DNA from: Pseudobutyrivibrio sp. MD2005
Lineage (GTDB): Bacteria > Bacillota > Clostridia > Lachnospirales > Lachnospiraceae
Length of the DNA: 64,000 bases
Assembly (NCBI RefSeq): GCF_000621865.1
Contig: NZ_JHXE01000012.1
Span: forward strand, 124,001-188,000
Reading direction: 5' to 3'
In this document: positions 46,769 through 48,417 of the stretch, in pieces
Layout: each line of letters opens with the position of its first letter
Numbering within the stretch: position 1 is the first letter of the stretch
Made by a program: the position numbers and the translations under genes
Notes under the pieces: generated by a model
What the model saw: only the letters and a program-made list of their open reading frames with translations
Database searches by the model: none
What the model was told of the DNA's origin: nothing

Positions 46769-47311
46769 TTAATCCATAATAAAATGATTATTAAACTCCT
46801 CTTGCGCTGCCGACATTTCATGTGCTCCATACGCACATAGCATAACATCAATCTCATAGTTTGGATATTCATCTATAAATCTCTTATAAGCTCTGCAGCA
46901 TTGTTTTGTTGATTCAGCAACTGGATTTTTTAAATTGCCACCAAATATGCCAGCACTAATAAGAGGAAATGATATGCTATGATATCCATTATCCATCATA
47001 ACTACCAGCGAATTGTAATATGCGTCATAAAGTGCATTAAATGCAGTTGGCGTAACTGCAAAATTAGGCCCAATGGCATGAATAATTGCTTTGGCATTAG
47101 ATAGTCTAAACGCTGGTGTGATAACTGCAGCTCCATCACTTAAAGGTGTCTTATATCTGCCACATGCCTCGCTTAATTCTTGTATGCCAGCTTTATCAAA
47201 AATAACTCCGCATATTCCTCCACCTGCCCAAAGACCTGAATTTGCAGCATTTACAATTATATCTGCCTTTTGATCTGCACATGAACCATTAATTAAACTA
47301 ATCTTACTCAT
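46769..47311 (-). CDS. Macro-domain (ADP-ribose-binding) protein
   Basis: A 180-residue stand-alone macro domain. The ADP-ribose motifs are VNAANSGLWAGGGICGVIF, AIIHAIGPNF and SFPLISAGIFGGN. Such proteins bind or hydrolyse ADP-ribose groups or O-acetyl-ADP-ribose. ATG 47311 with GAGGTGG upstream is chosen; the longer reading from 47407 lacks a ribosome-binding site. A DUF3990 ADP-ribosyltransferase-like gene lies 3 kb away, and a nicotinamidase-like gene lies beyond the repeat array. Confidence 0.9.
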   Translation of the reverse strand: MSKISLINGSCADQKADIIVNAANSGLWAGGGICGVIFDKAGIQELSEACGRYKTPLSDGAAVITPAFRLSNAKAIIHAIGPNFAVTPTAFNALYDAYYNSLVVMMDNGYHSISFPLISAGIFGGNLKNPVAESTKQCCRAYKRFIDEYPNYEIDVMLCAYGAHEMSAAQEEFNNHFIMD

Positions 47312-47431
47312 TTCACCACCTCTACCTTCGCAGACTTCTTGCGAGACAAACAGAGCAAACTCCCGCAAAAATCTGGCTTCGCCTGATACGCCTTTGCATA
47401 AATGCAACGCTTAGTCAAATACGATTATATT

Positions 47432-47782
47432 TTACTTGTAAAATTGACTTTAGTAATGAATAACAAGTAGAGATTTCTTATCAAAATGTAAAGCTACTTG
47501 TAATTCGGATAATTATATTTAATTACAAGTAGTTTTTAATCACCAGGTTTTAGGAACTACTTGTATTTATAAAAATATGCCACTATCACAAGTAGCCAGC
47601 ATTGCAATGTTACCAAATCCTACTTGTGATAAGCATAATACAAATAGTCGCAAGTAGTGGATAATATGAACAATTATAATACTACTTGTGATATAAAGAA
47701 AAATAACGTTCACAAGTAGGATTAAAAGAAAAAGTATTGAAAGCTACTTGTATAACACAATTTTTTTATTTCACACAAGTAA
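47432..47782. repeat. Periodic array of twelve alternating CTACTTGT / ACAAGTAG sites
   Basis: ACTTGT begins at 47434, 47496, 47559, 47622, 47684 and 47746. The inverted ACAAGT begins at 47463, 47525, 47588, 47650 (GCAAGT) and at 47712 and 47775. Steps alternate 28-29 and 33-34 bases, giving a repeat period of 62-63 bases, about six DNA turns. The intervening segments are unrelated in sequence. The full motif is CTACTTGT with RAT often following. The array fills the 560-base gap 47312-47871, which holds no gene. It is not a CRISPR: the repeats are too short and alternate in strand. Confidence 0.9.
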
Positions 47783-47871
47783 ATTAATAACAATCGTTAG
47801 TATATTAGCGCAAAATTGTTTGAATCATTGTGAGCCACTCATGAAATAAGCCCACCAAAACCTTTATATGC

Positions 47872-48417
47872 CTATCGCCAGTCCTCTAAGCCTTCATTGA
47901 GTATGTGAATGTGGCATGCTTTCATAGCCTCTATTGCTGTATCGTGGCTTTGAGGGGTAACACCTGCACATCCCTTGGCATCAACAAATATTCTAACATT
48001 TGGTAATACAGATTTAATTAGTAGAGCATTTGATATTACGCAAATATCAGTACATACTCCTACGATTTCAACAGATTCTACATCGCCTTCTTTACCCTCA
48101 AAAAATTGGGCTAGCTCTTTTGAGCCGAATGTGTTTTTATTGAATATATTTTTCTTATCAACATAAGGCGCTAATTCTGAAGTGATTTCCCACCCTTGGG
48201 TATTTTCAATACAATGTGGTACAGGTAGATTTGCACCTTCCTCTGTAGACATATAGTTTTCCTGATGCGTATCCCTTGTAAAAATAATATGAGTATCGGA
48301 ATCTACATGATCCAGTTTATCTTTGATGTACTTGATAACTTGAACACCCTCATCATTTTTTAGTGCCCCCGTCAAAAAATCATTTTGCATATCGATTACT
48401 ACTAAATACTTATCCAT
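47872..48417 (-). CDS. Nicotinamidase-like cysteine hydrolase (isochorismatase family)
   Basis: A 181-residue hydrolase. The catalytic Asp is in VIDMQNDFLTGAL. The metal-site segment is FTRDTHQENY, and PVPHCIENTQGWEI matches the PncA pattern. The catalytic Cys is in VGVCTDICVISNALL. It probably deamidates nicotinamide for NAD salvage; another amide substrate is possible. It starts after a strong AAGGGGGA ribosome site. The periodic repeat array lies just beyond its 3' end. Confidence 0.88.
   Translation of the reverse strand: MDKYLVVIDMQNDFLTGALKNDEGVQVIKYIKDKLDHVDSDTHIIFTRDTHQENYMSTEEGANLPVPHCIENTQGWEITSELAPYVDKKNIFNKNTFGSKELAQFFEGKEGDVESVEIVGVCTDICVISNALLIKSVLPNVRIFVDAKGCAGVTPQSHDTAIEAMKACHIHILNEGLEDWR

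Follow-up and report, generated by a model that had tools for sequence, protein, structure and literature searches.

Array A of Pseudobutyrivibrio sp. MD2005, a probable stand-alone copy of an inverted-site array linked to a gene for a PD-(D/E)XK-like protein

Array A and its counterpart on contig C17

Between a Macro-domain gene and an isochorismatase-domain gene of Pseudobutyrivibrio sp. MD2005 lies a run of twelve short sites in alternating orientation, here called array A, and the question it raises is what kind of element it is. It was found in a stretch of 64,000 nucleotides (the window). The first-pass annotation described a 12-site alternating array under selection for spacing, with all sites on one face of the helix, and proposed a protein-binding array, a partition-like centromere, a replication-control locus or a string of small hairpins. 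The array is real: scanning 451,751 bases of the window genome (G000) de novo recovered 10 arrays, though not a partial one on contig C8, while three first-order resampled copies yielded none. The array and its flanking genes are as follows.

46769-47311, minus strand: flanking gene, Macro domain (PF01661), with its first ATG taken as the start, about 120 bp away from array A
47432-47782, no strand assigned: array A, 12 alternating inverted 8-mer sites, a probable solo copy of the C17 gene-linked array
47432-47439, plus strand: site 1, TTACTTGT, left end variant, also in array B
47463-47470, minus strand: site 2, ACAAGTAG
47494-47501, plus strand: site 3, CTACTTGT
47525-47532, minus strand: site 4, ACAAGTAG
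47557-47564, plus strand: site 5, CTACTTGT
47588-47595, minus strand: site 6, ACAAGTAG
47620-47627, plus strand: site 7, CTACTTGT
47650-47657, minus strand: site 8, GCAAGTAG
47682-47689, plus strand: site 9, CTACTTGT
47712-47719, minus strand: site 10, ACAAGTAG
47744-47751, plus strand: site 11, CTACTTGT
47775-47782, minus strand: site 12, ACAAGTAA, right end variant, also in array B
47872-48417, minus strand: flanking gene, isochorismatase domain (PF00857), its stop about 90 bp from array A

Exact CTACTTGT or ACAAGTAG occurs at 9 of the 12 sites, the exceptions being the two outermost and the one at 47650, and the word has GTAG at one end. Start-to-start steps of 31, 31, 31, 32, 31, 32, 30, 32, 30, 32 and 31 bp place the sites evenly, about three turns apart, in alternating orientation. 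The same-strand spacing of 62-63 bp per pair was correctly described, as was its closeness to six helical turns in this array; an alternation of 28-29 and 33-34 bases, also described, was not found between the 8-mers and depends on which bases are taken as anchors. The Macro-domain ORF has an earlier TTG start at 47407 in the ORF list, and our Pfam query for this gene began one codon upstream of its first ATG.

Using a two-site search of the same genome, we found a second 12-site array (array B) at C17:3996-4346, as the suggestion to look for further arrays had anticipated. By blastn, window positions 47430-47783 correspond to C17:3994-4347 with 66.5% identity over 364 columns. The alignment ends within 2 bp of the outermost sites on both sides, where the flanks become unrelated, so that the copied piece appears to be the array itself. 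Of the 96 site bases, 93 are the same in arrays A and B. Between the two arrays the spacers correspond position by position, with an equally good score in 0 of 20,000 permutations. Within array A the spacers are, by eye, unrelated to one another, as the first-pass annotation stated; the correspondence between copies argues that the spacers are not acquired guides.

A 269-aa ORF begins 233 bp past array B, and its homologues also come after arrays in two named MAGs. We consider it likely that this C17-encoded, PD-(D/E)XK-like protein has its cognate DNA-binding array in B and that array A is a copy of B standing alone; lying upstream of the Macro-domain gene, array A is probably a solo target to which the protein would bind. 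The first-pass annotation, whose interpretation is partly supported overall, had missed this membership in a gene-linked family.

Other arrays of the window genome show the same division into gene-linked and solo copies. In the 451,751 bases, each of the five paralogue frames has a detected array chain at a distance of 26-185 bp. The five solo arrays there, array A included, use words of gene-linked arrays or close variants of them. Copying is not always restricted to the array: in two other solo pairs the shared sequence extends into the flank, at 97% over 264 bp for the pair on C8 and 93% over 356 bp for that on C7. The C8 pair consists of solo TATCACA arrays at G000:C8:148170-148432 and 156219-156482, with about 110 bp of the 264-bp match outside the array. 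The partial array on C8 (L004 1501-1707; G000:C8:50442) comprises two sites, a 129-bp gap and two further sites, the terminal one being the ACAAGTAA variant. A hairpin-rich stretch of about 110 bp follows array B (L005 1833-1950) and, by eye, apparently recurs beside the C10 paralogue L109; it is perhaps another repeat element of this genome.

Solo arrays could instead be remnants of protein-plus-array loci that have lost the gene. The positional homology of A and B is old enough (66.5%) to allow for this. We regard it as highly improbable: the protein family profile finds no match in the window at E 1e-5, the A/B homology stops at both outermost sites, and one relative carries arrays on 10 contigs with only 3 protein matches.

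A nuclease-like protein family and its linked arrays

Searches with a profile of the partner protein family matched nine proteins in the window genome and nine in Butyrivibrio sp. VCD2006. The family is present in 28 of 29 genomes of the genus, in 81 of 250 genomes of a family sample (E<=1e-30) and in 7 of 299 genomes of a phylum sample (E<=1e-20), where the full-length form occurs in four, all Lachnospiraceae. None of the members tested (3, then 14) has a Pfam match above cut-off. The C-terminal domain matched PADLOC PDC-S68 in 14 of 14 members (best 3.8e-30), and PDC-S68 and HEAT_CxxC_PDDEXK resemble the array-linked proteins in this homologous nuclease domain; the PDC-S68 models span about 1200-1270 positions, of which only the C-terminal end matches. 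Residues E162, D193, E208 and H209 are invariant across all 14 proteins.

In an AlphaFold model of the L023 protein (mean pLDDT 72), confidence is about 85-94 across most of residues 151-260. The N-terminal half is poorly predicted, and a role for it in DNA binding is putative. Foldseek placed DrdV, Bax1 and R2 endonuclease chains at the top (best E 0.012) and MunI, BamHI, Vsr and FAN1 lower, with unrelated folds further down; 0 of 267 matches reached E<=0.001. We take DrdV, Bax1, R2 and the like to belong to the PD-(D/E)XK superfamily. With both the modelled fold and an acidic motif present, the partner protein is predicted to have a PD-(D/E)XK-like C-terminal domain, with putative cleavage activity.

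One paralogue of the window genome, L182 (G000:C1:160791-161594), has an internal TAA in frame and may therefore be decaying; its 5-site array is still detectable. The same nuclease domain, again matching PDC-S68, ends long ORFs in viral contigs (L205-L213, L215), which we presume to be RecD-type helicases from their appearance. The 12 viral loci that carry the domain have no arrays. A viral origin of the array system was rejected, as the array pattern gave 0 matches in viral contigs and the viral, plasmid and phage protein matches cover mainly the C-terminal domain.

To survey linkage, we used a motif-free scan for alternating inverted 7-mers. An array was detected at 73 of 107 unique Lachnospiraceae loci (81 of 115 before 8 duplicate places were dropped) and at 21 of 35 loci of a second set, mostly from other genera, from which 4 of 39 loci had first been removed (L269, L270 and L271 as domain-only, L273 as an own-genome duplicate). 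We ourselves chose the score threshold (3.4) and the regularity filter, which keeps a chain if at least 75% of same-strand steps fall within 2 bp of the median. No array was detected at 34 of 107 and 14 of 35 loci; arrays that are short or decayed score below the threshold, and contig edges cut some loci. Control stretches gave a match in 2 of 28, namely the window's own array and a RAYT (Y1_Tnp) locus of Butyrivibrio sp. VCD2006 (L084). Positions 957-1332 of that locus contain an array of 12 alternating sites whose median period is 72 bp, and REP-type arrays thus seem to coexist with the new kind in this strain.

In the window genome, 8 of 9 paralogues adjoin an array, with 8 different words (one is a weak 5-site array), and the frame of the ninth starts about 350 bp from a contig edge. 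Across loci, 78 of 94 main arrays lie upstream of the gene and 16 downstream. The number of detected sites ranges from 5 to 29 and is even in 64 of the 94. Words vary widely, many being TAC-type, with no common GTAG tag; by eye, the first site is often, not always, of the TAC-outward type. At L108, L186, L189 and L098, arrays occupy both sides of the gene, like an array-flanked unit.

A pattern scan of one genome from each of 84,980 species returned 27 stretches, 20 of them, with units of about 64-65 bp, in four Lachnospiraceae genomes (Butyrivibrio sp. VCD2006, RGIG5105, RGIG3232 and SRR12081303_bin.78). The remaining seven (L014, L015, L016, L025, L032, L034, L040), all outside Lachnospiraceae, contain a single match apiece and were discounted as chance. 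The word of array A was found neither as an exact two-site pattern in 28 genus mates nor as a degenerate three-site pattern in 396 other genomes of a family sample, and we read this as other genomes using other words.

Some gene lineages keep their chromosomal place: 15 loci follow a guaA-like gene, ten a gene that we take to be comEC-like (the piece used had no Pfam match) and four the ribosomal protein S9 gene. Pfam confirmed the S9 neighbour and gave only a PP-loop match for the guaA-like one. At the guaA-like position, words and period vary across species. From these sequences, we read the protein and array pairs as orthogonal, each type of protein presumably binding its own repeat word. 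Among gut and rumen bacteria, arrays of this kind usually stand beside a nuclease-like gene, and the pattern suggests a family of proteins paired with DNA arrays that has yet to be described; a search of a partial literature collection found no description of such arrays.

Helical phasing and the nature of the sites

The unit lengths of the main arrays fall into three classes, with 56 arrays at 52.51 bp, 16 at 63.26 bp and 21 at 73.90 bp. These correspond to 5, 6 and 7 turns at 10.50, 10.54 and 10.56 bp per turn and account for 93 of 94 main arrays; the one exception is L172 (90 bp), and among 11 secondary arrays only L169 (44 bp) falls outside. In the second set, all 21 main periods fall within the same classes. 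The phase offset is 0.14 bp at 10.5 bp per turn, compared with a required -2.65 bp at 11 bp per turn. A Rayleigh test over 41 cluster-level values gave R 0.84, a value reached in 0 of 20,000 draws from either of two null models. Shared ancestry among related genes makes a count of period-class changes the fairer measure, and a quick tree of 106 proteins, of which 72 have an array, gives at least 11, counting the one odd array. The related pair L165 and L167 combines the same word with periods of 53 and 63 bp, and locus L174 holds two similar words at 52 and 73 bp.

Within 77 first-set arrays, which had been pre-filtered for regularity, 646 of 737 intervals are exactly modal and 714 are within 1 bp of the mode. 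Several outliers lie near +9 to +11 or +/-18 to 21; others (-4, +4, +6, +7, +8, +13, +15) do not fit, and the outliers are only suggestive of phasing. Taken across many loci, and from their sequences alone, it is strongly supported that selection keeps array units at whole helical turns. The first-pass proposal of a protein-binding array with selected spacing and sites on one helix face gains strong support from the related arrays at 5, 6 and 7 turns, with the binding itself presumed.

The conservation of the sites is consistent with this. Successive same-phase sites differ at 4.3% of positions (185/4256, a figure bounded by the site-finding method), compared with 36.7% (3604/9808) of spacer positions between successive units, and when 8 loci, each from a different genome, are aligned, the words hardly vary, in contrast to the diverged spacers. 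Fixed words within diverged spacers look like a protein footprint, as judged from these comparisons.

We then considered transcription. At 25 of 80 loci, the 300 bp upstream of the array contain a strong sigma-A-like promoter, compared with 3.1 expected from shuffles; about 12 of these loci form a single related group, and the scan left out L131. On the opposite strand upstream, the count was 1 of 80. Within arrays it was 1 of 80, where 3.95 would be expected, and in the stretch separating array from gene it was 3 of 80, where 3.25 would be expected. Given the upstream promoters and the leader position, gene-linked arrays are probably transcribed, at least at promoter-bearing loci.

Such transcription would also suit an array that acts as RNA, a hairpin string forming a leader or guide-like RNA that the neighbouring nuclease processes or binds. 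The arms are complementary, array A folds well (z -5.7 for the plus strand, -3.9 for the minus strand), and paired arms have changed in step in a few arrays (L022, L024, L031). Across 89 main arrays with at least 6 sites, however, an arm mutation was matched by the neighbouring arm in only 18 of 229 and 6 of 207 cases, compared with about 37 expected each from within-array frequencies, an expectation raised by variants shared on one strand. A change was shared with the next same-strand site in 108 of 392 cases. Since arm mutations are rarely compensated, hairpins are probably not the conserved feature, and the small-hairpin string suggested at first is disfavoured, although array A folds as that idea would predict. 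The quantised unit length, at 10.50-10.56 bp per turn rather than 11, also speaks against an RNA element. We judge the RNA reading improbable. In Rfam, array A has no match at gathering score, only a sub-threshold match to mir-2797.

Under the preferred reading, that of a DNA-binding array, protein dimers would bind the dyads of half-sites and align cooperatively on one helix face. At its own gene, where promoter and start codon often have the array between them, binding could throttle transcription and amount to autoregulation; with 16 of 94 main arrays downstream of the gene, simple autoregulation is not valid for all. Solo arrays would then be additional occupied sites.

A related possibility is that the protein is mainly a transcription factor, with a reused or inactive nuclease fold, and that solo arrays are operators of other genes. 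About 120 bp separate array A from the first ATG of the downstream Macro-domain gene, the solo array L020 ends 14 bp ahead of an ORF, and some gene loci have the array placed between the promoter and the gene. We nevertheless think this unlikely, as the invariance of the four residues in 14 of 14 proteins would be hard to explain without catalysis, the ORFs adjoining solo arrays have no common theme by eye, and the downstream arrays fit it poorly.

Relation to known systems and the spread of solo arrays

A partition-like centromere, replication-control locus or iteron origin, as first suggested, is not supported for array A: its flanking genes are Macro and isochorismatase with no Par or Rep, each genome has several arrays with paralogue-specific words, and the partner is PD-(D/E)XK-like. 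Autoregulatory operator arrays and iterons are repeated sites beside the gene of their binding protein. The arrays described here resemble them in keeping sites on one helix face and in adjoining the gene of the presumed binding protein, and differ in their alternating inverted orientation over 5-29 detected sites, their solo copies elsewhere, their different word per paralogue and the nuclease domain.

CRISPR arrays consist of direct repeats with unique acquired spacers beside a nuclease-type gene. TIGR-Tas, in the excerpted account, likewise has a regular array beside a nuclease-type gene (PMC12045711). The present arrays share with CRISPR, and with TIGR-Tas to the extent of that excerpt, a regular array adjoining a nuclease-type gene; unlike either as so described, their repeats alternate in strand, the spacers of A and B match and were not acquired, and no Rfam family is found at gathering score.

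The nearest analogue is the RAYT/REPIN system. The excerpted accounts of REPIN/BIME elements describe short, dispersed, inverted extragenic repeats in several families per genome, each family having a cognate gene that adjoins one of its copies, the RAYT being a Y1, HUH transposase (PMC3116915, PMC3733652). Our arrays are likewise dispersed extragenic inverted pairs with one copy beside the cognate gene. Unlike a RAYT, the partner protein is PD-(D/E)XK-like and not HUH, and unlike REPINs the arrays are long and regular, have a unit locked to whole helical turns, lack a shared GTAG tag and have arms that rarely compensate. A search for Y1_Tnp (PF01797) found no match in the window genome, G425 or G427, 7 in G424 and 1 in G426; a RAYT explanation was thus ruled out for the window genome.

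By analogy with the role supposed for RAYTs in REPINs, solo arrays may spread through copying that the nuclease may promote. This raises the prospect of REP-like miniature elements mobilised by the nuclease, with phasing imposed by a transpososome or filament and no host function. Solo arrays in five genomes, the copying of B into A with exact ends and unrelated flanks, and the turnover of word and period between related genes would all fit. Against it, the only target-site duplication by eye is a 3-bp match (ATT) at A, with none at B; no empty site for array A was found among 11 macro-gene relatives, none of which shows the 12-site array (their other neighbours differ, two loci are cut short, and L239 has a different array about 1 kb away); and some gene lineages hold their chromosomal place, as at the 15 loci after the guaA-like gene. 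A purely selfish element is a serious possibility, though we lean away from it.

Our broader proposal, which we put forward tentatively and with some doubt, is that these loci are a new class in which many orthogonal PD-(D/E)XK protein and array pairs occur within one bacterial family. The protein would read its array by a helical ruler of whole-turn dyads, control its own gene from a transcribed leader and copy units elsewhere, with motif, period and protein diversifying together.

A multi-paralogue nuclease-like family without a Pfam match is now tied to probable DNA targets, and each protein has a natural set of candidate binding sites. The array and protein pairs may serve as ready-made material for studying how DNA-binding specificity diversifies, and they would constitute a non-HUH parallel to REPINs.
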